Assembly (NCBI GenBank): GCA_039804025.1
Contig: JBDRZP010000010.1
Coordinates: forward strand, 1-64,000
Source of the DNA: a candidate division WOR-3 bacterium
GTDB taxonomy: Bacteria; Hydrothermota; Hydrothermia; Hydrothermales; JAJRUZ01
Direction: 5' to 3'
Length of the DNA stretch: 64,000 nt
Positions 2,881 through 21,724 of the stretch are shown here, piece by piece. A program made the translations under genes and the position numbers. The notes under the pieces are model-generated. The model saw nothing but the letters and a program-made list of their open reading frames with translations, was not told where the DNA came from and did no database searches. Every line of letters starts with the position of its first letter. Position 1 is the stretch's first letter.

Positions 2881-3213
2881 TTATTTTATCTGGTAAAGAA
2901 CTTTACCTTTTTCTGAATATATTTTCATCATTACTTCTCTAACAATCTGAGATGCTTCGAGAACCTCTTTATATTTTAAATTATAGTAAACTATATTACC
3001 TTTTCTTATTTTTTCTAAAATCCCCTTCTCATAAAGTGCTTTAACATGTTGAGAGATATTTGGCGGGGATAATCCCAACTCCTTTGAAAGCTCCTTAATA
3101 GTTTTCGGTCCTTTAGAAAGGGTTTCAAGTATAAGCAATCTTTTTGGCTGTGCTATTGTTTTACAGAACTCTGCCTGCATATAATAAATTTCAGGAAAAT
3201 TTTCATTTTTCAT
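2881..3213 (-). CDS. ArsR-family winged-helix repressor
   Basis: A 110-residue ArsR/SmtB-type protein. The winged helix-turn-helix runs from about residue 22 (PKRLLILETL) through the recognition helix around LSPPNISQHVKALYEKGIL (48-66) to a beta-wing (KGNIVYYNL). The classical ArsR CVC metal site is absent; the only Cys is Cys17 (EFCKTI), so the effector may not be a soft metal. It lies between two cytochrome genes on the same strand, and AT-rich palindromes occur in its own promoter and in that of the octahaem gene, so it probably regulates the cytochromes. The signal sensed is unknown. Confidence 0.88.
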   Translation of the reverse strand: MKNENFPEIYYMQAEFCKTIAQPKRLLILETLSKGPKTIKELSKELGLSPPNISQHVKALYEKGILEKIRKGNIVYYNLKYKEVLEASQIVREVMMKIYSEKGKVLYQIK

Positions 3214-3313: not shown

Positions 3314-4357
3314 TCAAAACTGTGGTGGAAGTCTATCAAGCGGTTCAGCAAAAAGAATCTGTTTCAGATCTGCATCATCTTTAAGATGTATCCAATTACC
3401 CTGATTATCTTTTGTTACAAAGGAGAATTTTAAACTCGTTCGCCAATCTTGAGGAACAGGTATAACACCTTTAAAATATTTTAGTTTTAATGAATCAGAA
3501 TTCCACCAGACTGCTGTCATAGTTCCGTTTAAGTTATATTCCTGAACAATTGGGTTATTATGGCATTCATCACATATTGTTGATGGATCAGGTTTATATA
3601 TGGTGTGTCCATAAAAAGGAGCAATTACAACAAAAGCTTTACCCTGATAAGTTATTGACATAATATTACCGGCATGAACCTTTCCATTTCTTTTTACAAG
3701 AAATTTCCAGCCGTGGAATCTGCCATATGCAACTTTCTGACCCTGATTCACTTCAGATTCAAAATGACAGTTATAGCATGTAACAACACTTTTTACATGA
3801 CAGGCTGAACAATCAAGTTTATCATCTTCAAAATTGTCAAGGGCTCCAAGGTGAGAATTATGAGCAGAATTAGATACAATTTGAGTATGACAATCATAAC
3901 ATTTTATATGAATAGCACCTTCAAGCATTGAATTATAAGTTTTACCATCACCATGAACATCTTCCTCTCCATGACATTTAGCACATACAAATCCCATTGA
4001 ACTATGGACATCAGTATAACCCATCAAAATTTCAGCTTTCTGCCTTCCGTGACAATTTAAACAAGAAGCATTAGTAGGAACATCCCCTTCCCTCACATGG
4101 CATGTATTACAGGCATTAGATTCAACATGACAGTTTTTACAGGTCAGGTTATCATAAGGTATATTGGATATATTTTCAAAACCACCATTCTGGGAGGAAT
4201 ACCAGTATGCCATACCAGCTGTTGTTCCATGAAGAGAATTTTTAATTAAATCTGAGGGAGAGGGAGGTGAAGGCTGAAGAGGACATTCCTTTTTTTTACA
4301 ACCACTGAATATAATAAAAACAATTATACCAAGTATTACAGGTATTTTAAACCTCAT
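3314..4357 (-). CDS. Octahaem cytochrome c lipoprotein
   Basis: A 347-residue lipoprotein (lipobox FSGC, Cys20, then a Pro/Ser-rich linker) with eight CxxCH motifs: CKNCH, CNTCH, CLNCH, CAKCH, CYDCH, CSACH, CYNCH and CDECH. Conserved extra histidines (VHSSMGF, VHGDG, AHNSHLG) can act as distal ligands. The C-terminal 90 residues are haem-free. It belongs to the doubled-CXXCH/cytochrome c7-like group; the partner is unknown. Strong Shine-Dalgarno AAGGAGGG. The leader contains a small hairpin, and the promoter overlaps AT-rich palindromes that may bind the neighbouring ArsR protein. Confidence 0.9.
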   Translation of the reverse strand: MRFKIPVILGIIVFIIFSGCKKKECPLQPSPPSPSDLIKNSLHGTTAGMAYWYSSQNGGFENISNIPYDNLTCKNCHVESNACNTCHVREGDVPTNASCLNCHGRQKAEILMGYTDVHSSMGFVCAKCHGEEDVHGDGKTYNSMLEGAIHIKCYDCHTQIVSNSAHNSHLGALDNFEDDKLDCSACHVKSVVTCYNCHFESEVNQGQKVAYGRFHGWKFLVKRNGKVHAGNIMSITYQGKAFVVIAPFYGHTIYKPDPSTICDECHNNPIVQEYNLNGTMTAVWWNSDSLKLKYFKGVIPVPQDWRTSLKFSFVTKDNQGNWIHLKDDADLKQILFAEPLDRLPPQF

Positions 4358-4496: not shown

Positions 4497-4545
4497 TTGA
4501 AATTTTATTTTTTTAACCCTATATTATTACTATGAAACTTAGTAA
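4497..4545 (+). promoter_or_regulatory. Leaderless promoter with BlaI-type operator
   Basis: TTGAAA (4497-4502), 17-base spacer, TATATT (4520-4525), then only 6 bases to the ATG at 4532, so the mRNA should start at or near the start codon. TACTA (4528-4532)-N7-TAGTA (4540-4544) is a perfect inverted repeat over the start site; the half-sites match those of the BlaI/MecI operator (TACTA-N6-TAGTA). The same TACTA-N7-TAGTA lies at the efflux operon promoter (5801-5817). Confidence 0.65.
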
Positions 4546-4918
4546 ATCTTTAAAACTATTTCTTGGAGAGCTCCAGGCTGAATGTCTTGATATTTTATGG
4601 GATTTAAATAAAGCAACCTGTTTGGATATACTTGAGGTATTTAAAAAAAGAGGGAAAAATTATGCATATACAACTATACTTACTGAAATGCAAAACCTTG
4701 AAAAAAAAGGAATTGTTAAATCAGAAAAAATTGGTAAAAAAAATTTATACTTTCCAGTAATAAGCAAAGAAGAATTTCTAAAGAAAAAAACAGAAGAAAT
4801 ACTTTCCCCACTCCTTGAAGAAGTCCCTCATCTTGTGGCTATGAATTTTATCAAAAAAACTAAATTAAATGAAAAGGAAAAAAGAAAATTAATTGAAATA
4901 TTAAATTTAAAAGAATGA
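4532..4918 (+). CDS. BlaI/MecI/CopY-family repressor
   Basis: A 128-residue winged-helix repressor of the BlaI/MecI/CopY family. Residues 10-75 form the DNA-binding domain, with LGELQAECLDILW and YTTILTEMQNLEKKGIV matching the family's first and recognition helices. Residues 85-128 form the dimerisation helix. Asn105-Phe106 (LVAMNF) aligns with the BlaI/MecI bond cut by BlaR1/MecR1 (Asn101-Phe102), so release by proteolysis is plausible. CopY-type CxC metal sites are absent. It overlaps the protease gene by 4 bases (ATGA). Inferred role: represses itself and the efflux operon through shared TACTA-N7-TAGTA operators. Confidence 0.9.
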   Translation: MKLSKSLKLFLGELQAECLDILWDLNKATCLDILEVFKKRGKNYAYTTILTEMQNLEKKGIVKSEKIGKKNLYFPVISKEEFLKKKTEEILSPLLEEVPHLVAMNFIKKTKLNEKEKRKLIEILNLKE

Positions 4919-5766
4919 ACTTTTTAATAAAAACATTCACACTTTATATTATACTTTCCATCATTATATTAGTTTATAAAGAGCTACCTTTTTCAAAAAT
5001 CAATCTAAGAAAAAAATTCCCTTACCTTCTGATAATAGTTTTTATCCTTTCATTTTTACCATTTTATATTTACTACAAAGCCTTTCTTGACTGTAACTTA
5101 AAATGTCTTATTTTAGGTCCTCTTCCCTTGAATAACAAAATTTTCTTTATCCCCTTAATTTCCTTTACCTTGTTTTTTATTTTATTAACAAAATATCTTA
5201 TAAAAGAACTCAAATACAAAAAATTACCTTTAATTTTGTATGGAAAAAATAAAGAGGGAATCTCTGTAAATGGTATCTTTAAACCCTTTATCTTTATTGA
5301 TAAGACTTTATGGAAATCTCTCTCAAAAAAGGAAAGAAAAATAATCCTTCTCCATGAAATAAACCACATAAGACAGAAAGATACTTTCATAAAGCTTATA
5401 ATTAGCCTTCTTTCAAAAACCTTCTTCTACTTACCCCATTTCTTTTTACTGAGAAAAACCTTTGAAGAAATAGCTGAACTTGCTTCTGATGAATATACAC
5501 TGATAAAAACTTCAGAAAAAGAAAATATTGTTAAAACAATTGCAAAATTATCCCTTATATTAAATTCAAATCTTAATTTTAGTTTTACATCTTCTCCTAT
5601 CTTAAAAAGAATTGACTCCCTGAGTACTAACAGAAAAAGTAAAACAAAATTCTTTTTATTTACTCTTTTCCTTTCCGCTCTTTTTATTACTCTAATATCC
5701 TTCTTCCCCCTTAAAGAAAATTGCGGAATTGACTGCCAAAACCTAAAAACCTTATGCCACTTATAA
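4915..5766 (+). CDS. BlaR1-like M56 membrane metalloprotease (putative metal-sensing antirepressor)
   Basis: A 283-residue M56-family protein with BlaR1 topology: TM1 about 3-21, TM2 36-54, extracytoplasmic loop 55-76, TM3 77-96, cytoplasmic zincin domain with HEINH (147-151) and downstream EIAELASDE, then TM4 about 245-265. The large beta-lactam sensor domain is missing; only an 18-residue tail remains. All five cysteines are in the two predicted extracytoplasmic parts: Cys60-x3-Cys64 in the loop, and Cys270-x3-Cys274 with Cys281-His282 in the tail. I infer a compact metal sensor that cuts the adjacent BlaI-like repressor. The family is clear; the metal role is inference from context and cysteine placement. 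Confidence 0.82.
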   Translation: MNFLIKTFTLYIILSIIILVYKELPFSKINLRKKFPYLLIIVFILSFLPFYIYYKAFLDCNLKCLILGPLPLNNKIFFIPLISFTLFFILLTKYLIKELKYKKLPLILYGKNKEGISVNGIFKPFIFIDKTLWKSLSKKERKIILLHEINHIRQKDTFIKLIISLLSKTFFYLPHFFLLRKTFEEIAELASDEYTLIKTSEKENIVKTIAKLSLILNSNLNFSFTSSPILKRIDSLSTNRKSKTKFFLFTLFLSALFITLISFFPLKENCGIDCQNLKTLCHL

Positions 5767-5800
5767 ATTCCATGAACCTTAAAAATTTTTTAAATTTAAA

Positions 5801-5817
5801 TACTATAATGAATAGTA
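5801..5817 (+). promoter_or_regulatory. BlaI-type operator over efflux-operon promoter
   Basis: TACTA (5801-5805)-N7-TAGTA (5813-5817), extended to TACTAT/ATAGTA. It overlaps a consensus -10 TATAAT (5804-5809). Spacing and half-sites equal those at the repressor's own promoter (4528-4544). The leader to the ATG at 5825 is only about 9 bases. Confidence 0.65.
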
Positions 5818-5824
5818 GAATTGT

Positions 5825-6988
5825 ATGAAAGGCTTAATTTTTTTAACTATTTTTAACTTAACACTTTTTTCTGATACTTTGAAGTTAAAAGAGGCGCTTA
5901 ATATTATCCTTGAGAAGAATCCTGAAATTAAATCTTCATATGAAAAACTGAAGGAAAAAGGTTCAAGAATTCTTCCATCTTTTACTCCACCAAATCCAAG
6001 GATTACTTTTAGAGCAATGTTCATGGAAGAAAATATCTCTATAATGCAAGAAATTCCTCTTCCAACAAAATTAATAACCGAAGGACTTATGGCGAATGAT
6101 GAGTATAAAATGGAATTTTATCTCTATCAGGCAAAAATTCTTGAAATAATAAGAGAGCTCAAGGAGAACTTTTATGAATACTACTTTATAAACAAAAAAA
6201 TTGAAATCACTAAAAATCAAATAGAAATCTTGAATAAAATGAAAGAGATAGCTGAAAGGAAATATGAATCAGGTTCAGCAAGTTTATATGAAGTTCTTAA
6301 AAGCCAGATTGAACTTGAAAAAATTAAAAATGAACTTAGTCTCCTTGAATCAGAAAAAATAAAAATAAGGGAAAATTTAAAGAAACTTTTAAATATAGAC
6401 AAAATTCCTGAAATAACCGAAGAAGTCAATTTTGAAGAAATAAAAATAAATGAAGACTCTTTAATAGAGGTTCTTTATGAAAAAAATCCGCTTTTAAAGG
6501 CAATGGAATTTGATGTAAAAGCAAAAAATAAGGAAAGAATTTTATCTTATCAAAATTTAATTCCTGACCCGATGCCAGAACTTCTTTATAATACAAAAAC
6601 AGGTGAGAAAAAAATTGCTCTCTCTTTTGAAATTCCTCTATTTTTCAGGGAATTTTACGAGATAAAAGAAAAAAATGCAAAACTAAAAAATTCAAAATGG
6701 GAACTTCTAAATACAAAACTTGAATTAAAGCAGGAGTTAGCCTCTCTTATATCCCTTTATAGATCAAAACTTGAAAGATTAAAAATTTTTAAAGATAAAA
6801 TTTTACCAAAAGCTGAAGAATCCTTTATAAGTGCAGAAGCAGGTTACATTTCAGGAAAATTAGACTTTTTATTTTATTTAGAAAGTGAAAAAATGCTTTA
6901 TGAATCAAAAATAGATTACTTTATGATTTTAACTGAACTTTTAAAAATAAAATCAAAAATTGAAGAAATAACAGGAGGTAAATTATGA
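5825..6988 (+). CDS. TolC-family outer-membrane efflux channel (CusC-like)
   Basis: A 387-residue outer-membrane efflux protein with a short N-terminal signal. Two long alpha-helical coiled-coil repeats follow, for example QIEILNKMKEIAERKYESG and KAEESFISAEAGYISGKLD, as in the TolC/CusC fold. It is shorter than E. coli TolC but usual for HME-type CusC-like channels in this group. It is the first gene of the efflux operon, its stop overlaps the next ATG (ATGA), and it carries the BlaI-type operator at its promoter. It should form the outer-membrane exit duct for the CusB/CusA-like pump encoded downstream. Confidence 0.88.
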   Translation: MKGLIFLTIFNLTLFSDTLKLKEALNIILEKNPEIKSSYEKLKEKGSRILPSFTPPNPRITFRAMFMEENISIMQEIPLPTKLITEGLMANDEYKMEFYLYQAKILEIIRELKENFYEYYFINKKIEITKNQIEILNKMKEIAERKYESGSASLYEVLKSQIELEKIKNELSLLESEKIKIRENLKKLLNIDKIPEITEEVNFEEIKINEDSLIEVLYEKNPLLKAMEFDVKAKNKERILSYQNLIPDPMPELLYNTKTGEKKIALSFEIPLFFREFYEIKEKNAKLKNSKWELLNTKLELKQELASLISLYRSKLERLKIFKDKILPKAEESFISAEAGYISGKLDFLFYLESEKMLYESKIDYFMILTELLKIKSKIEEITGGKL

Positions 6989-7323
6989 AAAAATTTATTT
7001 TACTCACAGGGGTTTTAACCCTTTCAATATATATAAATCTATACGGGTTTCAACATGAAACCCATTCAGAAGGTAAAAAGGAAATGCAAAAAACCTGCTG
7101 CCCTTCCAAAGAGAGTAAATGCTCTCCAAAAACTTCTGAAATAAAAGCTAAGGAAGGAGAAATAAAGACTTTATATATTTGCCCCATGCACAAAGAAGTT
7201 ATTATGGAAAAAGAAGGAAAATGTCCGATCTGCGGAATGAAACTTGAACCCAAGAAAATGATTTATAAAAATGGCAAATGGGAAATTTACGAAGGAGAAA
7301 AAAACACCAAAAATAGAGGATAA
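6985..7323 (+). CDS. Small secreted heavy-metal-binding protein (CPMH...CPICGM)
   Basis: A 112-residue protein with a signal peptide (1 to about 21), a Cys/His-rich middle (TCCPSKESKCSP) and a heavy-metal-binding domain with ICPMH and CPICGMKLEPK. The last 55 residues are a near copy of the N-terminal part of the next gene product. It lies between the TolC and CusB genes, overlapping the former by 4 bases and 3 bases from the latter. Probably a periplasmic metal chaperone, comparable in position to CusF but not homologous to it. Metal identity (Cu, Ag or others) is not shown by the sequence. Confidence 0.8.
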   Translation: MKKFILLTGVLTLSIYINLYGFQHETHSEGKKEMQKTCCPSKESKCSPKTSEIKAKEGEIKTLYICPMHKEVIMEKEGKCPICGMKLEPKKMIYKNGKWEIYEGEKNTKNRG

Positions 7324-7326
7324 AAA

Positions 7327-8610
7327 ATGAAAAAAATTTTTCTATTTTTAAGTTTATTTTCAATATTCCTTTACATATCATCCTGCAGGTCTCAGCAAAA
7401 AACTCCAAAGGAAGGTGAAATAAGAACCCTTTACCAGTGTCCTATGCACCCTCAAATTATTCAGGAAAAGAAAGGAGATTGCCCAATATGCGGAATGACA
7501 CTTGTCGAAAGAAAAATGATTTATAAGAATAGTAGATGGGAACCCTATGAGGAAGGGATGGAACATAAAGGACATGAAGAACCCGAAGGAAGCAAAATTG
7601 AGGAGAAAGGAGTTGAAACAGAAACATCCTTAGGACTTGCAGAGGTAAAAATTCCACCTGAAAAACAACTTTTAATTGGTGTTAAAAAGGATACCGTAAA
7701 AATTAAAAATTTAGAAAAACTCATTAAAACTTACGGTAAGGTCGACTACAAGGAAAGTAACATATATGAAATCAACCTTAAATTTGGTGGATGGATTGAA
7801 AAACTTTATGCAGGTTATGAAGGTATGTATGTTAAAAGAAATGATAAACTTTTTGAGATTTACTCGCCTGATATTTATCAGAGCATAAAGGAATTAAAAC
7901 TTGCCTATGAGAAAAAGGATACCTTACTTTTAAAAAATGTTAAACAGAAATTTAACATCTGGGGAATAAGAGATTTTCAGATTGAAGAAATATTAAAAGA
8001 TAAAGAAGATAGAAGAACCATTACATTTTATTCTCCCTATGAAGGTTTCATTATAAAAAAAGAAATCTTTGAGGGAATGGAAGTAAGACCCGGAATGACT
8101 ATATACAGAATCGCAGATTTAAGAGAAGTATGGGTTTACGGTGAAATTTATGAATATGAAGTAAATCTCATAAAAAAAGGGAATGAAGCCTTTATAACTC
8201 TTTCCTATTTTCCAGAAAAGATTTTTAAAGGAAAGGTAAATTATATTTATCCTTATCTCAATCCTGAAACAAGAACAACGAAAGTTAGGGTAGAAATTCC
8301 AAATCAAGATTTTAGTTTAAAACCCAATATGTATGTTAATATTGAAATAAAAGTAAATTACGGGAAAAAACTTGTCATTCCAAAAAGTGCTGTTTTATAT
8401 ACAGGAGAAAGAAATATTGTCTTTGTGGATAAAGGTGGAGGCACGTTTGAACCAAGAGAAGTTAAATTAGGAATATCTGATGAGGATTTTTATGAGGTTA
8501 TAGATGGTGTTAAAGAAGGTGAAGTTGTTGTTACATCTGCTAATTTTTTGATCGATTCTGAATCCAGTTTAAAAGCTGCCCTTTTACAGATGGGCTTAAG
8601 CGGTAAATAA
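7327..8610 (+). CDS. cusB: CusB-like periplasmic adaptor lipoprotein with metal-binding domain
   Basis: A 427-residue RND membrane-fusion protein. It has a lipoprotein signal (YISSC, Cys20), then a heavy-metal-binding domain (YQCPMH, CPICGMTLVER), then barrel-sandwich, helical hairpin and beta-barrel regions typical of CusB: GGWIEKLYAGYEGMYVKRND, YSPYEGFIIKKEIFEGMEV and PGMTIYRIADLREVWVYGEI. The N-terminal module duplicates the preceding small protein. Next to TolC- and CusA-like genes it links the outer-membrane channel to the inner-membrane pump, and the metal domain may load the pump. Confidence 0.9.
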   Translation: MKKIFLFLSLFSIFLYISSCRSQQKTPKEGEIRTLYQCPMHPQIIQEKKGDCPICGMTLVERKMIYKNSRWEPYEEGMEHKGHEEPEGSKIEEKGVETETSLGLAEVKIPPEKQLLIGVKKDTVKIKNLEKLIKTYGKVDYKESNIYEINLKFGGWIEKLYAGYEGMYVKRNDKLFEIYSPDIYQSIKELKLAYEKKDTLLLKNVKQKFNIWGIRDFQIEEILKDKEDRRTITFYSPYEGFIIKKEIFEGMEVRPGMTIYRIADLREVWVYGEIYEYEVNLIKKGNEAFITLSYFPEKIFKGKVNYIYPYLNPETRTTKVRVEIPNQDFSLKPNMYVNIEIKVNYGKKLVIPKSAVLYTGERNIVFVDKGGGTFEPREVKLGISDEDFYEVIDGVKEGEVVVTSANFLIDSESSLKAALLQMGLSGK

Positions 8611-8629: not shown

Positions 8630-11600
8630 ATGATAGAAAAAATTATTGAATACTCGGCAAAAAAAAGATTCTTTGTATTCCTTGGTGTAGTTTTTTCAAT
8701 TTTATGGGGAATATGGGCAATAAGAAATATTCCACTTGACGCTTTACCTGACCTCTCAGATACCCAGGTCATAGTTTTTGTAAGATGGGATAGACCACCC
8801 CAGATAGTCGAGGATCAGGTAACTTATCCAGTTGTGACAGCCCTTCTCGGTGCTCCAAAGGTCAAGGATATAAGAGCTTTTTCTGATTATGGTTTTTCCT
8901 TCATTTATGTTATTTTTGAAGACGGAACGGATATTTACTGGGCTCGCTCAAGAGTTCTTGAATACCTTTCCAAAATAATTCCAAGTTTGCCTTCTGATGT
9001 TAAAGTGGAGATAGGTCCTGATGCAACAGGTCTTGGATGGGTATTCGAATATGCACTTGTTGATAAAAGTGGTAAACACTCCCTTGATGAATTAAGAACA
9101 TTTCAGGATTTCCATTTAAAATATGCTTTACAATCAGTTAAAGGTGTTGCAGAAGTTGCATCTGTAGGTGGTTTTGTGAGGCAATATCAGATTATAGTTG
9201 ACCCTGTAAAAATTGCTTCACTTGGTATTTCAATTGATGAAATATCAAGAGCTGTAAAAGCTTCAAACGAGGAGATAGGGGCAAGACTTATAGAATTTTC
9301 CGGCATCGAGTATATGATTACCGTAAGGGGTTATATAAAAGACATTAAAGATATAGAAAATATTGTATTAAAGGTTAGAGAGGATGGTGTTCCTGTTAGA
9401 GTAAAGGATGTTGCAGAGGTAAAGCTTGGTCCTGACATAAGAAGGGGTGTTGTAGAGCTTGATGGAATGGGAGAAGTTGTTGGGGGAATAGTTGTGATGA
9501 GATATAAAGAAAACGCTTTAAATGTAATAAAAAGAGTGAAGGAAAAATTAAAAGAGATAAAATTGCCTGATGGTGTTGAACTTGTAATAACCTATGACAG
9601 GTCAGATTTAATTATTAAAAGTATAGAAACATTAAAAAGAAAACTTTTTGAAGAAATGCTCGTTGTAAGTCTTGTGATAATTATATTTTTATTTCATTTT
9701 TCATCTTCCTTAATTCCTGTATTAACATTACCAATTGCCGTTATTATCTCATTTATTCCCATGTATTACATGAAAATGACCAGTAACATTATGAGTCTTG
9801 GGGGGATTGCAATTGCAATAGGGGCAATGGTAGATGCAGCAATAGCAGTTGTGGAAAATGTTCATAAAAAACTTTCTATTTTAAAAGAAAGTGGAGAAGT
9901 GGCAAATTACAGAGAGGTTATGATAAATGCCATAAAAGAGGTGGGAAGACCTTCTTTTTTTACACTTCTTGTTATAGCAGTTTCTTTTACTCCTATTTTT
10001 GCCCTTGAAGCTTTTGAAGGCAGACTCTTTAAACCACTTGCCTTTACTAAAAACTTTGCCATGTTCTTTTCAGCAATTCTTGCTATTACTCTTTCACCTG
10101 CTCTTATCACTCTTTTAATAAGACTCAAAAAATTTAATTTAAAGCCCATATGGATAAATAAATTATTAAACACTCTTTTTGTGGGTGAAATAAGAACTGA
10201 AGAAAAACACCCAATTTCAAGATTTTTATTCAAAATATATGAACCAGTTTTAAATTTTATTTTAAAAAGACCAAAAATTATTATCTTATCTTCTATTTTA
10301 ATATTTTTAATAACAATTCCCTTTTTTTTATCCCTCGGTAGTGAATTTATGCCTCCTTTAAATGAGGGTTCTATATTATATATGCCCACAACTCCCCCGG
10401 GTATTTCTATAACAGAGGCTGCAAAACTTTTACAGATTCAGGATAAAATATTAAAAACATTTCCTGAAGTTGAAAGGGTTTTTGGTAAAGCAGGAAGAGC
10501 ATTAACTTCCACTGATCCTGCTCCCCTTTCTATGATGGAAACAACTGTTTTATTGAAACCGCAAGATAAATGGAGAGAGAAAAAAAGATGGTATTCAAAT
10601 ATTTTACCTGAATTTTTAAAACCACCTTTCAGAATTATATGGCCTGATAGAATTTCCTGGGAAGAACTTATTGATGAGATGGATAAAGCTTTAAGAATTC
10701 CAGGACAGGTTAATGCCTGGACTATGCCAATAAAAGGAAGAATAGATATGCTTACAACCGGTGTAAGAACACCTGTGGGCATAAAGATTTACGGTGATGA
10801 TTTAAAAAAGATAGAGGAAATTGGTAAAGAGATCGAAAAAATCTTAATAAATTTAAAAGGAACAAGAAGCATTTTTGCTGAAAGGGTTTCAGGTGGATAC
10901 TTTCTGGATATAATTTTAAAAAGAGAAGAAATAGCAAGGTATGGTTTAAAGATTAAAGATGTTCAGATGACCCTTATGTCTGCAATTGGAGGAGAAAATA
11001 TTACACAGATAATAAAAAATAGGGAAAGGTTTCCAGTTAATGTTAGGTATCCCTTTGATCTAAGACAGGATATTGAAAAAATAAAGAAGGTTTATATTAC
11101 TACTCCACAGGGATTTCAGGTTCCCCTTACACAACTTGCAGAAATAAATATTATTCTTGGTCCAAGTATGATAAGGGATGAAAATGGAAGGTTAGCTGGT
11201 TATGTATATATAGATGTTGCTGGAAGAGATCTTGGTTCCTATGTTAATGAGGCAAAAAAAATATTAAGAGAAAAATTAGAACTTCCAGCTGGTTATACTC
11301 TCGTTTTTAGCGGTCAGTATGAGTATATGGAAAGAATAAAAAAGAGAATGACTCTTATAGTTCCACTGACACTTTTTATAATTTTTCTTCTTTTATATAT
11401 AAACACAGGTTCTTATACAAAAACCTTTATAGTTCTTCTTGCTGTTCCCTTTTCCCTTATTGGTGCTGTTTGGGCTTTATATATTTTAGGATACAACTTG
11501 AGTATAGGAGTATGGGCTGGGATAATAGCACTTTTAGGTGTTGATGCTGAAACGGGTGTTTTTATGCTCTTATACCTTGATTTAGCCTATGAAGAAGCGA

Positions 11601-11872
11601 AAAAAAGCGGAAGACTTAAAAATATTTCAGATTTAAAGGAAGCTATTCATTATGGGGCTGTTAAAAGGATAAGACCGAAGATAATGACAGTTTTTACAAC
11701 TTTTATCGGTCTTTTACCCATTATGTGGTCCCAGACTCATGAAATTGGTGCAGATGTTATGAAGAGAATTGCTGCTCCTATGGTAGGTGGAATTTTTACC
11801 TCTTTTTTAATGGAACTTATAGTATACCCTGCAATATATTTTATTTGGAGAAAAAAAGATTTACACAAATAA
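8630..11872 (+). CDS. cusA: CusA-type heavy-metal efflux RND pump
   Basis: A 1080-residue HME-RND transporter of full family length. Seen: TM1 then PLDALPDLSDTQVIV, the RND motif GAMVDAAIAVVENVHK in TM4, and the large periplasmic domain containing the CusA signature WTMPIKGRIDMLTTGVRTPV. The second half carries GVWAGIIALLGVDAETGV and RIRPKIMTVFTTFIGLLPI. The signature region matches the Cu/Ag branch (CusA) rather than the Co/Zn/Cd branch, though specificity by eye is not certain. Last gene of the operon; a hairpin follows its stop. It exports metal by proton exchange from periplasm and cytoplasm through the CusC/CusB parts. Confidence 0.94.
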   Translation: MIEKIIEYSAKKRFFVFLGVVFSILWGIWAIRNIPLDALPDLSDTQVIVFVRWDRPPQIVEDQVTYPVVTALLGAPKVKDIRAFSDYGFSFIYVIFEDGTDIYWARSRVLEYLSKIIPSLPSDVKVEIGPDATGLGWVFEYALVDKSGKHSLDELRTFQDFHLKYALQSVKGVAEVASVGGFVRQYQIIVDPVKIASLGISIDEISRAVKASNEEIGARLIEFSGIEYMITVRGYIKDIKDIENIVLKVREDGVPVRVKDVAEVKLGPDIRRGVVELDGMGEVVGGIVVMRYKENALNVIKRVKEKLKEIKLPDGVELVITYDRSDLIIKSIETLKRKLFEEMLVVSLVIIIFLFHFSSSLIPVLTLPIAVIISFIPMYYMKMTSNIMSLGGIAIAIGAMVDAAIAVVENVHKKLSILKESGEVANYREVMINAIKEVGRPSFFTLLVIAVSFTPIFALEAFEGRLFKPLAFTKNFAMFFSAILAITLSPALITLLIRLKKFNLKPIWINKLLNTLFVGEIRTEEKHPISRFLFKIYEPVLNFILKRPKIIILSSILIFLITIPFFLSLGSEFMPPLNEGSILYMPTTPPGISITEAAKLLQIQDKILKTFPEVERVFGKAGRALTSTDPAPLSMMETTVLLKPQDKWREKKRWYSNILPEFLKPPFRIIWPDRISWEELIDEMDKALRIPGQVNAWTMPIKGRIDMLTTGVRTPVGIKIYGDDLKKIEEIGKEIEKILINLKGTRSIFAERVSGGYFLDIILKREEIARYGLKIKDVQMTLMSAIGGENITQIIKNRERFPVNVRYPFDLRQDIEKIKKVYITTPQGFQVPLTQLAEINIILGPSMIRDENGRLAGYVYIDVAGRDLGSYVNEAKKILREKLELPAGYTLVFSGQYEYMERIKKRMTLIVPLTLFIIFLLLYINTGSYTKTFIVLLAVPFSLIGAVWALYILGYNLSIGVWAGIIALLGVDAETGVFMLLYLDLAYEEAKKSGRLKNISDLKEAIHYGAVKRIRPKIMTVFTTFIGLLPIMWSQTHEIGADVMKRIAAPMVGGIFTSFLMELIVYPAIYFIWRKKDLHK

Positions 11873-12623: not shown

Positions 12624-12908
12624 ATGAATAAAAGTCATATTATTGAAATTTTTTCAGCAGATTGTCCCTTATGCAGGGATGTTATAAACATTGTGGAATT
12701 AGGAAAATGCTCTTCATGTAAAATGGAAATATATAACCTTAATAAATTAGATAAGGAAATAAAAGAAAAAATTTTAAAATACAGAATAAAAGCAGTTCCT
12801 ACAATTGTGATAGATGGTGAAATAAAAGTTGAAGGAGCTCCTGATTTTCCCTGGTTCTGTGGGGAAGAGTTTTATAAAATGCTTAAGGAAAAATTTCCAT
12901 TAAAATAA
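12624..12908 (+). CDS. Thioredoxin-fold (glutaredoxin-like) protein
   Basis: A 94-residue single thioredoxin-fold domain. Active-site motif CPLC lies at about residues 14-17 (FSADCPLC), and the cis-proline loop is KAVPTIVIDGE. A second pair CSSC follows at about 30-33. It lacks a signal peptide, so it is cytoplasmic. The OsmC-family gene starts 14 bases downstream, so both are probably co-transcribed as thiol/peroxide or metal-stress proteins. The start codon directly follows TATAAT; an alternative -10 TAAAAT six bases further upstream would give a leaderless mRNA. Confidence 0.8.
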   Translation: MNKSHIIEIFSADCPLCRDVINIVELGKCSSCKMEIYNLNKLDKEIKEKILKYRIKAVPTIVIDGEIKVEGAPDFPWFCGEEFYKMLKEKFPLK

Positions 12909-12921
12909 AGAGGATGTAAAA

Positions 12922-13437
12922 ATGAATAACATAAACCTTGATTCTTTAAATAAAACAAGGGAACAGATTTTAAGGGGAGAATTCCCAGACAAAAAATCCT
13001 TTGAAGTTCAGGGTGAATGGATTTTCAGCTTTGAAGGTCAATTTAAATCAGAAATTGAATTTCCTAATGGTAAGCTAAATTTAATAACTGACCAGCCACC
13101 ACCATCAGGAGGTAGGGGTAACGCTCCAAATCCTGTTCAATACTGTGTATTTGCCATGATATCCTGTTATGCTACAACCTTTATGACAATTGCTGCTTCT
13201 AAAGGTGTTGAAATAAAAAAATTAAAGGCAAGAGGTGCTTCAATTGTTAATATGAAATCTGTCTTTGAAATAGAAGAAGGACCTGTTGTTGAAAAAGTGT
13301 GGATTGAATTGGAAGTAGAAAGTGAAGCAGATGCTAAAATTTTACAGGAAATAAAAAATGAAGCTGACAAAAAATGTCCTGCAGCTTATGTTGTTCAGAA
13401 TAAAGTTCCCTTTGAATCTCATCTATATTCTAAATAA
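12922..13437 (+). CDS. OsmC/Ohr-family protein
   Basis: A 171-residue OsmC-like protein. YCVFAMISCYATTFMTIAASKGVEIKKL carries the conserved helix with the first active-site Cys, and KKCPAAYVVQNKVPF carries the second Cys near the C-terminus. Such proteins reduce organic hydroperoxides or act on thiol compounds. It follows the thioredoxin-like gene, which could supply reducing power. Its stop faces the asnB stop 9 bases away (convergent). Confidence 0.85.
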   Translation: MNNINLDSLNKTREQILRGEFPDKKSFEVQGEWIFSFEGQFKSEIEFPNGKLNLITDQPPPSGGRGNAPNPVQYCVFAMISCYATTFMTIAASKGVEIKKLKARGASIVNMKSVFEIEEGPVVEKVWIELEVESEADAKILQEIKNEADKKCPAAYVVQNKVPFESHLYSK

Positions 13438-17276: not shown

Positions 17277-19520
17277 ATGGAAAATAAGAAAAAACAAATA
17301 AAAATTAAAATCGGTGGAATGACCTGTGCAAGTTGTGTAAGGAGAGTGGAGAATTCTTTAAAAAATTTAAAGGGAATTTTAAATGTTAATGTAAATTTAG
17401 CAACTGAAAGCGCAATAATTACTTATGATGAGAATTTTTTAAAAATAGATAACATAAAAAAAAGAATTGATGATATAGGTTATAAATTTCTGGGAATTTC
17501 CTCTGATGAAGGTTATGAAATAGATGAAAAAGAAAAAAAGAAATACATAGATAAACTTAAAAAAAGAGTTTATACAGGATTTGGTGGCGGAATTTTACTT
17601 TTATTCTTAATGTATGGAGAATATCTGGGACTAAACTTCAAAAATTTTAAAGGTTTACTTTTCCTTCAGTTATTAATAGCAGCCCCCCTTATGTTATATG
17701 TAGGTGGTCCAATTTTCAAAAAAGCTTTAAATGGAATTAAAAATAAAGATTTAAATATGGATGTTATGTATGCTATCGGAATAGGCTCAAGTTTTATCTC
17801 AAGCCTTCTTGCTACTTTTAAAATCATTCCAGAAAACTATAATTTTTATGAGGCAAGCGTACTCCTTGCAGCCTTTTTAACCCTCGGAAGACTCCTTGAA
17901 AATTTAGCAAAAAATAGAACAGGGGAAGCCATAAAAAAACTTATAGATTTAAGACCAAAAGAGGCAACAGTTTTGAAAGATGGTAAAGAGTTAAAAATTC
18001 CAATAAAAGAAGTTAAACCAGGAGATATTGTGTTAGTTAAACCTGGTGAAAAAATACCAACAGATGGGATTGTAATAGAAGGAGAGAGTTTCCTTGATGA
18101 ATCAATGGTAAGGGGTGAACCAATTCCTGAATTTAAGAAAAAAGGTGATGAAGTTATAGGTGGAACAATAAATCAGAATGGTTATTTAAAAATTAAAGTT
18201 ACAAAAGATTTTAAAGAAACATTCCTCTCACAGGTTATAAAACTTGTTGAAGAAGCACAGTATACAAAACCACAGGTACAAAAGCTTGCTGACAGAATTG
18301 TGACATATTTTATTCCTGTTGTCCTTATTATAGCAATTTCCTCTTACATTTTCTGGAGATTTTTTGGAAATGCTAATATAATGCCACCTTCCCTATTTGC
18401 CTTTATATCTCTTATATCAGTTCTTGTCATAGCCTGTCCCTGTGCCTTTGGTCTTGCAACTCCTACTGCAATAACTGCAGGAATAGGAAAAGGTGCTGAA
18501 CTTGGAATACTTATAAGAAATGGTGAAGCTCTTGAAACCTTAAAGAAAATTAATACAATAATTTTTGACAAAACCGGAACATTAACAAAAGGAAAACCAG
18601 AAGTTGAAAGTGTTATAACATTTAATAATATAAAGGAGGAAGAACTTATACTTTATGCTGCATCTGCTGAAAAAAATTCAGAGCATCCACTTGCAAAGGC
18701 TATTTTAAATTATGCTGAAAAAATTAAAATAAACTTAATAGAACCTGAAAAATTTGAAAGCTTTCCTGGAAAAGGTATAAGAGCAATAATCAAGGGAAAG
18801 GAAGTTTATATTGGAAATAAAAATTTTTTAAGGGAGATAAAAATTGAAATAAATAAACAAATAGAAAAGGAAATAGAAAAACTGGAAGAAGAGGCAAAAA
18901 CTCTACTTTTAGTAGCAATTGATGGTAAACTAAAAGGAATAATATCAGTTAGTGACAGAATAAAAGAAAACGCAAAAGAAATAATTTCCTATCTCAAAAA
19001 AAAGAAGAAAAAGGTTTATATGATTACAGGTGACACAAAAAAATCTGGTGAAGCGGTTGCGAGAAAACTTTCCATTGATAATGTAATAGCAGAAGTTTTA
19101 CCCCATGAAAAAAGGGAAAAAGTAAAGGAACTTCAGAAAAAAGGAGAAATTGTTGCTTTTATTGGAGATGGTATTAACGATTCACCTGCATTAACACAGG
19201 CGGATGTAGGTATCGCTTTAGGTTCTGGGACTGATATAGCAATTGAAAGTGGTGATATAGTGCTTTTAAGGGATGATTTAAGAGATGTTATAATTGCAAT
19301 GGAACTTTCTATTAAAACCTTAAACAAAATAAAACAGAATATATTCTGGGCTTTGATTTATAATATAATACTAATTCCCTTTGCAGCAGGACTATTTTAT
19401 TTATTATTTAGAGTGCCTTTCAGACCAGAATGGTCAGCAGCAGCAATGGCCTTAAGCTCTATATCAGTTGTAACAAATTCCCTGCTTCTAAAAAAATATA
19501 AACCTTCCTTGAAAATCTAA
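17277..19520 (+). CDS. copA: Copper-exporting P1B-type ATPase
   Basis: A 747-residue P-type ATPase with one N-terminal HMA domain (GMTCASC at about 13-19), membrane-site CPC (CPCAFGLATP, about 386), phosphorylation motif DKTGTLTKG (about 430), SEHPLAKAI (HP motif), and GDGINDSPAL. TM8 contains MALSS (AAMALSSISVVTNS), the P1B-1 signature for Cu(I)/Ag(I). Usual CopA length with a single HMA. It precedes a CsoR-family gene and a Zn/Cd ATPase. A -10 TATAAT at 17255-17260 leaves a leader of about 10 bases. Confidence 0.95.
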   Translation: MENKKKQIKIKIGGMTCASCVRRVENSLKNLKGILNVNVNLATESAIITYDENFLKIDNIKKRIDDIGYKFLGISSDEGYEIDEKEKKKYIDKLKKRVYTGFGGGILLLFLMYGEYLGLNFKNFKGLLFLQLLIAAPLMLYVGGPIFKKALNGIKNKDLNMDVMYAIGIGSSFISSLLATFKIIPENYNFYEASVLLAAFLTLGRLLENLAKNRTGEAIKKLIDLRPKEATVLKDGKELKIPIKEVKPGDIVLVKPGEKIPTDGIVIEGESFLDESMVRGEPIPEFKKKGDEVIGGTINQNGYLKIKVTKDFKETFLSQVIKLVEEAQYTKPQVQKLADRIVTYFIPVVLIIAISSYIFWRFFGNANIMPPSLFAFISLISVLVIACPCAFGLATPTAITAGIGKGAELGILIRNGEALETLKKINTIIFDKTGTLTKGKPEVESVITFNNIKEEELILYAASAEKNSEHPLAKAILNYAEKIKINLIEPEKFESFPGKGIRAIIKGKEVYIGNKNFLREIKIEINKQIEKEIEKLEEEAKTLLLVAIDGKLKGIISVSDRIKENAKEIISYLKKKKKKVYMITGDTKKSGEAVARKLSIDNVIAEVLPHEKREKVKELQKKGEIVAFIGDGINDSPALTQADVGIALGSGTDIAIESGDIVLLRDDLRDVIIAMELSIKTLNKIKQNIFWALIYNIILIPFAAGLFYLLFRVPFRPEWSAAAMALSSISVVTNSLLLKKYKPSLKI

Positions 19521-19531
19521 AAATTTTATAT

Positions 19532-19561
19532 TATAATTACCCTATACCCCTATAAAGTATA
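19532..19561 (+). promoter_or_regulatory. Candidate CsoR-type operator and promoter
   Basis: A consensus -10 TATAAT (19532-19537) is followed at the start site by two near repeats ACCCTATA and CCCCTATA (19539-19554). An inverted repeat TATAC (19543-19547)-N9-GTATA (19557-19561) is present. Runs of C flanked by TA resemble known CsoR/RcnR operators. A strong AAGGAGG Shine-Dalgarno follows before the ATG at 19573. Confidence 0.5.
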
Positions 19562-19572
19562 AGGAGGAAAAA

Positions 19573-19848
19573 ATGAAACTGGATGAAAAAACAAAGGAAG
19601 AAGTGCTTCCAAGAATAAAAAAAATAGAAGGTCAAATTCAAGGAATAATTAAAATGATAGAAGAAAGAAGGGAGTGTCCTGAAATTATAAATCAGATAAA
19701 CGCAGCAAAAAGGGCACTTGAAAAGGTGGCACTTATTATAATGGAATCCCACATAAAGCTTCATGTATCTCAATCTTTTAAAAGGAATATAAATAAAGAG
19801 GAAATTATTGAGGAACTTACGGAAACAATTTTTAAATTTTTAAAATAA
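19573..19848 (+). CDS. CsoR/RcnR-family metal-sensing repressor
   Basis: A 91-residue all-helical DUF156 regulator. Metal positions by family alignment are Cys35, His60 and His64. CsoR (copper) has Cys-His-Cys and FrmR lacks the third ligand, whereas RcnR (Ni/Co) has His3-Cys35-His60-His64. Here residue 3 is Leu, so the set is intermediate. It begins the operon with the Zn/Cd-type ATPase (1-base gap) and follows copA by 52 bases. It may sense the ATPase substrate rather than Cu(I). Confidence 0.88.
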   Translation: MKLDEKTKEEVLPRIKKIEGQIQGIIKMIEERRECPEIINQINAAKRALEKVALIIMESHIKLHVSQSFKRNINKEEIIEELTETIFKFLK

Positions 19849-19849
19849 A

Positions 19850-21724
19850 ATGAAAAGAAAAAACTGTTGCGAAAAATGTGATATTGAAATAAAAAAGGAA
19901 GATTTAGAAGAAAAAAAGAAAAATATAAAGGAGATAATTATAATTTTAATTTCTTTAATTTTATTCGTAACTGGATTACTAATTTTTAAAAAAATAATTC
20001 TTTTAATTGCTTACATAATTTCAGGTGAACCAATAATAAGAAGAGCAATAAAAAATATTTTAAAAGGGAAGTTTTTTGATGAAAATACCTTAATGTCGGT
20101 GGCTACAATTGGAGCAATTTTAATAAATGAAGTAGAAGAAGCTGTTCTTGTTGCCCTTTTTTATAGAGTAGGAGAATTTTTACAAAGTATTTCAATTCAA
20201 AGATCAAAAAGAAGAATAAAAAAGATCCTTGAACTTAAACCAAACTTCGCAAATATTAAAAGGGGTGATAGTGTAGTCAGAATAAAACCAGAAGAAGTAA
20301 AAATTGGAGAAATTATAATTGTTAAACCAGGGGAAAAAGTTCCACTTGATGGAATTATAATTAAAGGTGAATCCTATGTTGATACATCTCCTTTAACAGG
20401 TGAATCAGTCCCTAAATTTTTTAAAAAGGGGGATGAAATAAGTGCAGGTGTTATAAATAAAGAAAGTGTCCTTGAAATTAAAGTTTTAAAAGAATTTAAA
20501 GAATCCAGCATAAATAAGATACTTGATCTTGTTGAAAAAGCAAAGGAAAAAAAGGCAAATCCTGAAAAATTCATAACAAAATTCTCAAAATATTACACTC
20601 CCTTCGTTTTAATTATAAGTTTTCTTATAGCTTTTCTTTTACCCTTAACAACTGATATAACAATAAGAGATTCAATTTACAGAGCCCTTGTCCTCCTTGT
20701 TATATCCTGTCCCTGTGCTCTTGTGATAAGTGTTCCCCTTTCCTACTTTGTCGGAATAGGGACCTGTTCAAAAAATGGAATCCTTGTTAAGGGTTCAAAT
20801 TACCTTGATATTTTAAACGAAATCAAATTTTTTCTTTTTGATAAAACAGGAACACTCACAGAAGGTGTTTTTAAGGTCAGGGATATAAAAAATTTTAATG
20901 GTTTTAGAAAGGAAGAAATTCTTGAGATCTCAGCCTATGCGGAGGCAAACTCAAATCATCCAATTGCAAAAGCAATAAAAGAATATTATGGAAAAGAGAT
21001 AAAAAATATTGAAATGGAAGAATTCAGTGAAAAACCTGGACTTGGAATAAAGGCTAAATTTAAAGGAAGAAATGTTTTAGTTGGAAGTGATAGATTTCTT
21101 CATGAAAATAATATAGGTCATGAAATATGTAAGGGAGACGGAACTACTGTCCATGTAGTTGTTGATAATGTTTATGCTGGATATATAACTATTTCAGATG
21201 AAATCAGAAAGGAAGCAAAATCAGTGATTGAAAATTTAAAAAAACTAAAAATTAAAATAGGTATGCTAACAGGAGATGAAAAATTTGTTGCAGAGGAAAT
21301 AAGTAAAAAACTAAACCTTGACTTTTTTAAAGCGGAACTTTTACCAGAAGAAAAAGTTAAAGAAATAGAAAATTTAAAAAATAGTCACAAAGTTGCTTTT
21401 CTTGGAGATGGAATAAATGATGCTGCTGCCATAGCAATTTCAGATGTGGGAATAGCAATGGGAGCTATTGGACAGGATGCTGCAATTGAAAGTTCAGATA
21501 TTGTTATAATGGATGACAATTTATCAAAAATAAAAAAACTCTTTTCAATCTCAAAGAAAACTAAAAATATAGTTTTTATGAACATCATCTTCGCAATTTT
21601 AATAAAATTACTTTTTATATACTTGGGTTCAATTGGAATTGCCAGAATGTGGGAAGCAGTTTTTGCTGATATGGGTGTCTCTATTATTGCAATTTTAAAC
21701 TCAATGAGAATTATGAAATCTTAG
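19850..21724 (+). CDS. Zn/Cd/Pb-type P1B ATPase
   Basis: A 624-residue P-type ATPase without an N-terminal HMA domain; instead the N-terminus has a short CCxxC (NCCEKCD). Motifs: CPCALVIS in TM6, DKTGTLTEG, SNHPIAKAI, GDGINDAAAI, and in TM8 ADMGVS, whose Asp is the P1B-2 ligand for Zn(II)/Cd(II)/Pb(II). It is co-transcribed with the CsoR/RcnR-type gene. The short N-terminus fits ZntA/CadA-like pumps that replace the HMA domain by cysteines. Convergent overlap of 14 bases with metB. Confidence 0.9.
   Translation: MKRKNCCEKCDIEIKKEDLEEKKKNIKEIIIILISLILFVTGLLIFKKIILLIAYIISGEPIIRRAIKNILKGKFFDENTLMSVATIGAILINEVEEAVLVALFYRVGEFLQSISIQRSKRRIKKILELKPNFANIKRGDSVVRIKPEEVKIGEIIIVKPGEKVPLDGIIIKGESYVDTSPLTGESVPKFFKKGDEISAGVINKESVLEIKVLKEFKESSINKILDLVEKAKEKKANPEKFITKFSKYYTPFVLIISFLIAFLLPLTTDITIRDSIYRALVLLVISCPCALVISVPLSYFVGIGTCSKNGILVKGSNYLDILNEIKFFLFDKTGTLTEGVFKVRDIKNFNGFRKEEILEISAYAEANSNHPIAKAIKEYYGKEIKNIEMEEFSEKPGLGIKAKFKGRNVLVGSDRFLHENNIGHEICKGDGTTVHVVVDNVYAGYITISDEIRKEAKSVIENLKKLKIKIGMLTGDEKFVAEEISKKLNLDFFKAELLPEEKVKEIENLKNSHKVAFLGDGINDAAAIAISDVGIAMGAIGQDAAIESSDIVIMDDNLSKIKKLFSISKKTKNIVFMNIIFAILIKLLFIYLGSIGIARMWEAVFADMGVSIIAILNSMRIMKS

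Follow-up and report, generated by a model that had tools for sequence, protein, structure and literature searches.

To our knowledge, signalling through BlaR1-type membrane proteases and their repressors, which induces penicillin resistance in staphylococci, is described almost only for antibiotics, with a single published case for copper. A stretch of 64,000 nucleotides (hereafter the window) from a bacterium of the WOR-3/Hydrothermota group, with a genome of 2.1 Mb and Candidatus Hydrothermus pacificus as an order-level relative, encodes such a protease and repressor next to a metal efflux pump, which raises the question of what this pair senses and what it controls. A sequence-only reading had proposed that the protease is a BlaR1-like one, apparently rebuilt as a minimal sensor of copper or silver, with all of its cysteines in predicted extracytoplasmic parts. 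Here, we describe the components of the locus, their conservation and their counterparts in distant bacteria, and conclude that the protease and the repressor very probably sense extracellular metal and, in response, induce the pump.

Organization of the locus

The genes of the sensor pair and of the pump lie on the plus strand. The blaI gene (4532..4918) encodes a winged-helix repressor of the BlaI/MecI/CopY family of 128 aa, and overlaps by 4 bp (4915-4918) the gene of a minimal BlaR1-like M56 membrane metalloprotease of 283 aa (4915..5766). Pfam and NCBIfam matches bear out the proposed CusCBA-type neighbourhood, the genes directly downstream coding for a TolC/CusC-type outer-membrane channel (5825..6988; PF02321), a small exported-looking protein with a heavy-metal-binding domain (HMBD; 6985..7323; PF19335, 48.1 bits), a CusB-type adaptor with its own HMBD (7327..8610; PF16576 and PF19335, with TIGR00999 as the best NCBIfam match, under its cut-off) and a CusA-type RND pump (8630..11872). 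The pump belongs to the CusA/CzcA heavy-metal RND family (TIGR00914, 1064.6 bits against a cut-off of 701), and its residues M585, M635 and M707 align with M573, M623 and M672 of CusA (3t51), the methionine triad of the Cu/Ag subtype. This triad has a role in the CusA pumps for copper and silver.

The surroundings hold further genes with links to metals or redox chemistry. On the minus strand beside the switch, two multihaem c-type cytochrome-like genes (CxxCH; 1716-2720 and 3314-4357) are separated by an ArsR-type regulator gene (2881-3213), and the region 12624-13437, downstream of cusA, contains a thioredoxin-like (12624-12908) and an OsmC-like gene. A copper-type P-ATPase (GMTCASC, CPC), a CsoR-like repressor (19573-19848) and a second metal P-ATPase are encoded consecutively in 17277-21724. 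The first two of these (17277-19848) indicate that a cytoplasmic copper sensor is probably present already; sensing on the periplasmic side would fall to the M56 pair, the part played in E. coli by CusRS.

A minimal M56 protease without a beta-lactam sensor

The protease matches Peptidase_M56 (PF05569) with 56.3 bits, well over the curated cut-off of 31, and contains both the HExxH and the ExxxD motif. Its catalytic residues H147-E148-x2-H151, D156 and E188-x3-D192 (5353..5490, plus strand) are invariant in four orthologues and, in the 8exp alignment, have the same spacing as H201ExxH205, D210 and E242xxxD246 of Staphylococcus aureus BlaR1 (reference residues from PMC9834060). At approximately the position of the BlaR1 self-cleavage bond S283-F284 and of R294, whose roles are described in PMC9834060, the window protein has S223-F224 and R232 (5581..5610, plus strand), with F224 and R232 invariant. 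Judged by these residues, the M56 protease looks functional.

Hydropathy predicts membrane segments at about 3-21, 35-53, 78-96 and 246-264, with a weak additional one at 161-179 within the protease region. Inner loop 1 (22-34) contains five K/R and one D/E and the 97-245 region is also basic, so that C60, C64 and the 19-residue tail behind TM4 are predicted to be outside. Hydropathy and charge, with the 8exp alignment over the protease part, thereby yield a four-helix topology with both termini outside and the protease inside, in which the outer loop between TM2 and TM3 measures 24 residues; the BlaR1 topology read from the sequence is retained, as is HEINH at 147-151.

A beta-lactam-binding domain was sought in the M56 protein with Pfam and is absent, and the model NF000326 reaches 36.5 bits against a cut-off of 400. 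Of the claim that the protein was rebuilt from BlaR1 by losing its sensor, the absence of the domain therefore stands, but not the loss as an event. M56 proteins without a beta-lactam domain are common, and this form may be the ancestral one.

Conserved cysteines predicted outside the membrane

The cysteines of the M56 protein are found only at positions 60, 64, 270, 274 and 281, exactly as first read, with H282 adjacent to the last, and hydropathy and charge place all five outside. C60-x3-C64 (5092..5106, plus strand) lies in the outer TM2-TM3 loop, named EL1 in BlaR1, while C270-x3-C274 and C281-H282 (5722..5760, plus strand) lie in the outer tail. Four intact orthologues from one order were aligned, namely those of the window (G000), of G002 (94% identity), of G004 (45%, with the same gene order) and of G003 (40%). 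The five cysteine columns are invariant in these four sequences, compared with roughly one column in four overall, which argues for conservation beyond chance; H282 is variable, and other cysteines (C241 in one orthologue, C152 in another) are not common to the group. The sequence-only reading had made its case depend on such cysteines being kept in homologues beside metal pumps, and they are conserved there; the alignment has them invariant down to 40% identity. AlphaFold2 runs on the M56 protein with 3 and 5 aligned sequences gave a mean pLDDT of 46.9 and 46.1, with a pTM of 0.38, too low to speak for or against a meeting of the two CxxxC pairs.

Several other genomes carry related pairs. 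In G001, of the same genus, stops break both the M56 gene and cusA (L012:5939-12494) and both operator-like dyads are kept, a state that could reflect shared decay or an assembly error. G027 (L049:3210-4390) encodes a BlaI protein and a 268-residue M56 protein whose outer loop is rich in His (HLYHTH) and whose tail contains C-x4-C, the pair adjoining carbon-starvation and glycosyltransferase-like genes; this M56 protein is possibly another metal or redox sensor. The BlaI-M56 pair of G009 (L014:47-1497) has two outer-loop cysteines and Cys/His in a longer tail, and no pump adjoins it. A scan of the sequence collection with the M56 alignment returned only the two known distant relatives and otherwise weak M56/M48 matches.

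The repressor and its candidate operators

The partner of the M56 protease is a BlaI/MecI-type repressor with a Penicillinase_R winged helix (PF03965, 86.9 bits), and it aligns with the MecI/BlaI structures 1sd6 and 1sd4. Its N105-F106 (4844..4849, plus strand) aligns with the N-F (101/102) of S. aureus MecI/BlaI, the cleavage site of those proteins, and is a candidate cleavage site here; H-F replaces N-F in the repressors of more distant relatives.

The best NCBIfam match of the repressor is CopY_TcrY (47.4 bits), ahead of the BlaI models, and this is likewise the case for the repressors of the gammaproteobacterial loci described below. Together with C18, which is common to four repressors, this match could suggest that BlaI itself is the metal sensor, like CopY, and that the M56 protease merely turns it over. 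Such an arrangement is very improbable in our judgement. The score is far under the CopY cut-off of 122, and C18 and C30 are the only cysteines of the repressor, which hence lacks the C-terminal CxC motif of the CopY family (PMC7253601). Moreover, sensing by BlaI would leave the invariant outer cysteines of its partner unexplained, and a CsoR-type cytoplasmic copper repressor seemingly stands beside the copper P-ATPase already. Membership of CopY/TcrY was rejected on the score, the missing CxC motif and the missing operator core.

The best-scoring promoter on the plus strand of the region (10/12) is a sigma-70-like consensus match in front of the blaI-M56 pair (TTGAAA, 17 nt, TATATT; 4497..4525), and comparable sequences are seen by eye at the matching place in relatives. 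An operator-like dyad, TACTATGAAACTTAGTA (4528..4544, plus strand), covers the blaI start codon directly behind the -10 box of this promoter, and a second dyad, TACTATAATGAATAGTA (5801..5817, plus strand), ends 8 bp before the start codon of cusC. Both have the form TACTA-N7-TAGTA, and these are the only two such sites in the genome; G001, G002 and G004 likewise have exactly two each, at blaI and before tolC/cusC. In three relatives, the second dyad sits behind a conserved A/T-rich block. From their place and symmetry, the two dyads would be bound by BlaI. A TACA/TGTA operator of the BlaI/MecI type (reference operator in PMC7253601) was sought and not found, and the core of the CopY/TcrY operator RNYKACANNYGTMRNY (consensus in PMC7253601) is absent from both dyads. 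A relaxed search allowing two mismatches gave matches at noise level and was excluded from the results. Two features of the flanking DNA are worth recording: the A/T-rich block at 5780-5800 (AAAATTTTTTAAATTTAAA) hardly differs between G000, G002 and G004 despite 45% protein identity, and about 6 bp separate the -10 box from the blaI start codon inside the first dyad, a spacing that points to a leaderless mRNA.

The arrangement in G003 differs. Its blaI-M56 pair is away from any pump, and the genome has no close CusA, with RND pumps only at about 30% identity. The blaI gene itself has no recognisable dyad, and the single TACTA-N7-TAGTA site of G003 lies 43 bp before the gene of a Met-rich protein, a 55% homologue of which adjoins cusA in G004. 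The repressor thus appears linked to the handling of soft metals even in a genome where these genes are separated. The cluster behind this dyad (L069:2121-2770) encodes the Met-rich exported protein, a short SHOCT-like protein, and OsmC-like and thioredoxin-like proteins. The last two match the gene pair downstream of cusA in the window, and the same stress response may be involved in both.

The separation of pair and pump in G003 could be taken to mean that their neighbourhood in the window is due to chance and that the pair has no control of the pump. We give this almost no credence, since the gene order is conserved in G000, G002 and G004, the dyads are paired and unique, and eleven parallel loci are found in another phylum. 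A signal other than metal, such as cell-wall fragments, a beta-lactam or a membrane signal, with co-resistance accounting for the adjoining pump, would follow the precedent of BlaR1 and MecR1, and the signals of many M56 proteins are not known. This too we regard as improbable: the M56 protein has no binding domain, the only two dyads in the genome join the pair to the pump, the sole dyad of G003 precedes a Met-rich protein and the arrangement recurs at metal pumps in other bacteria.

Parallel systems in Gammaproteobacteria

Eleven gammaproteobacterial loci combine blaI, a minimal M56 gene and efflux genes (L085-L088, L091 and L097-L102). They come from a search for the family in 399 Pseudomonadota genomes, in which a short reading frame was the only filter, and from tblastn searches in plasmids, where the window M56 protein itself as a query gave weak matches only; two further short candidates, L089 and L090, were set aside as HtpX-like. 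The hosts are Shewanella, Glaciecola, Pseudoalteromonas, Pseudomonas and Salmonella plasmids, and several of the loci are on conjugative plasmids. A CusA/CzcA pump is present wherever the contig reaches, about 3 kb further on in L088, the contig of L085 ending inside tolC. Homologues situated mainly beside unrelated genes would have spoken against a metal switch; G004 and these eleven loci have theirs beside metal pumps.

The outer loops of these sensors are rich in metal-type ligands, reading DHCxVHDxHLHxCLIHPPLP in group B, more loosely in the Pseudomonas protein, and HWHHxD...SWH in group C, and the tails contain HHxxE, reduced to one H in the Pseudomonas protein. Outer-loop cysteines were found in none of 21 M56 proteins taken from other contexts, a comparison uncorrected for kinship and with the pump check mostly within about 1-8 kb, nor at eight other short-M56 loci with no CusA/CzcA within about 8 kb. 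In the tree, the window and gammaproteobacterial sensor groups are separate, a single clade not being rejected (p-AU 0.27).

These loci also have dyads. ACCGAT-N5-ATCGGT, with at most one mismatch, precedes blaI in 11 of 11 loci, has a second copy at the tolC start in most and is nearly unique in the six whole genomes searched. Written as TACTAT-N5-ATAGTA, the window dyad is built on the identical 6-5-6 plan and occurs at the same pair of positions, which lends independent support to the window dyads as BlaI operators. The two sets of loci are therefore alike in gene plan, minimal M56 protease, metal-type ligands in loop and tail, and dyads at blaI and tolC, whereas the gammaproteobacterial ones differ in their His/Cys or His ligands, their CzcA-like pumps and the sequence of their dyad.

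The ligands vary together with the pump. The triad positions hold three methionines in the pumps of the window and of G004 and mostly H, V and E in the CzcA-like gammaproteobacterial pumps, so that five-cysteine sensors pair with a Cu/Ag-type pump, and His/Cys or His sensors with divalent-type pumps. This correspondence is what direct sensing predicts, and it bears on a redox explanation, in which disulfides between loop and tail would set the protease upon oxidation or envelope thiol stress, including that caused by copper, with metal left unbound. Exported CxxxC pairs could indeed be oxidised in an apparently diderm cell and can be disulfides, the odd number of cysteines leaves one free thiol, and the genes downstream of cusA include a thioredoxin-like one. 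Yet the gammaproteobacterial relatives have His or His and Cys at the same two places, and His binds metal and forms no disulfide; a ligand set that follows pump type is equally unlike a disulfide model. We therefore consider a redox sensor unlikely, though worth keeping in mind.

A probable proteolytic switch for metal efflux

The reading that we prefer, and hold to be likely, is a self-contained metal-efflux switch in which metal at the loop and tail activates the protease, BlaI is cleaved and the pump is derepressed. At low metal, the BlaI-type repressor would occupy both dyads, at its own promoter and before cusC, and hold down the expression of both pair and pump. Periplasmic Cu(I) or Ag(I) would be bound by the invariant cysteines of outer loop and tail, in a site that either a single chain or both chains of a dimer would supply. 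In the switch proposed for BlaR1, the sensor excludes the outer loop (PMC9834060); the loop and tail of the window protein hold the only conserved cysteines, which makes a bridging metal the simplest substitute for the contact that the outer loop of BlaR1 makes with its sensor domain. The signal would then reach the zinc site of the M56 protease through the membrane, the repressor would be cut near N105-F106, and the pump operon and the blaI-M56 pair would be transcribed until the metal is exported.

The earlier proposal of a BlaI/BlaR1-type switch for copper or silver gains from the conserved and predicted outer cysteines, the metal-pump neighbours, the paired dyads and the parallel systems; we infer the identity of the metal, its binding, the contact of loop and tail, the cleavage of BlaI and the repression at the dyads.

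With somewhat less assurance, we lean towards a broader view in which M56 proteases form a wide and unrecognised class of metal sensors, whose site in the outer TM2-TM3 loop and short tail is retuned to the neighbouring pump (Cys in the case of Cu/Ag, His with or without Cys in that of divalent metals) and drives BlaI-type proteolysis, some members being plasmid-borne and maybe mislabelled as beta-lactam sensors. If true, a single protease chassis with interchangeable metal sites would be wired to efflux pumps in distant bacteria, providing an alternative to the CusRS/CzcRS kinases. The minimal form, of about 280 residues, would also be a far simpler system than BlaR1 in which to study the control of an inner zinc protease by an outer contact. 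Resistance surveys would be affected, because such M56 genes get called BlaR1-like: a review counts 'blaR1' among the antibiotic resistance genes near nickel/cobalt genes in nickel-resistant Shewanella (PMC11253441), and this gene is possibly a metal-type M56 sensor miscounted as an antibiotic gene.

Comparison with known systems

In the literature searched, with subscription papers mostly outside it, we found neither an M56 protein as a metal-efflux regulator nor a named M56 metal site, and no description of the gammaproteobacterial loci as metal sensors. The closest system is PetR/PetP of Synechocystis (Garcia-Canas et al. 2021, PNAS, doi 10.1073/pnas.2017898118), in which, as described in PMC10141476, copper prompts the protease PetP to degrade a repressor of the BlaI family. 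This published copper-dependent pair means that the novelty implied by the sequence-only reading was set too high. Both systems combine a BlaI/CopY-family regulator with a BlaR-family membrane protease. According to the same description, PetRP switches between plastocyanin and cytochrome c6 and does not take part in the copper-homeostasis response (PMC10141476), whereas an efflux pump is concerned here, petE and petJ are not targets and the dyads are at blaI and cusC only. Compared by description, the window pair possibly works like PetRP and perhaps belongs with it.

With the BlaI/BlaR1 and MecI/MecR1 systems of staphylococci, the window pair shares the M56 catalytic residues, the predicted four-helix topology, the approximate self-cleavage position, the repressor fold and N-F. 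It differs from them in having no beta-lactam sensor domain, 283 instead of about 600 residues, outer cysteine motifs, a metal pump as target and another operator. Likeness to CopY/TcrY extends to the repressor superfamily, the best NCBIfam match and, probably, copper; the repressor CxC and the operator core KACANNYGTM are missing, and sensing has apparently moved to the membrane protease. In E. coli, CusRS senses periplasmic Cu(I) and Ag(I) and controls CusCBA, a pump with the methionine triad. There, a histidine kinase and a response regulator do what a protease and a repressor would do here. The window proteins are thus members of the M56 and BlaI superfamilies, and are neither BlaR1 nor CopY.
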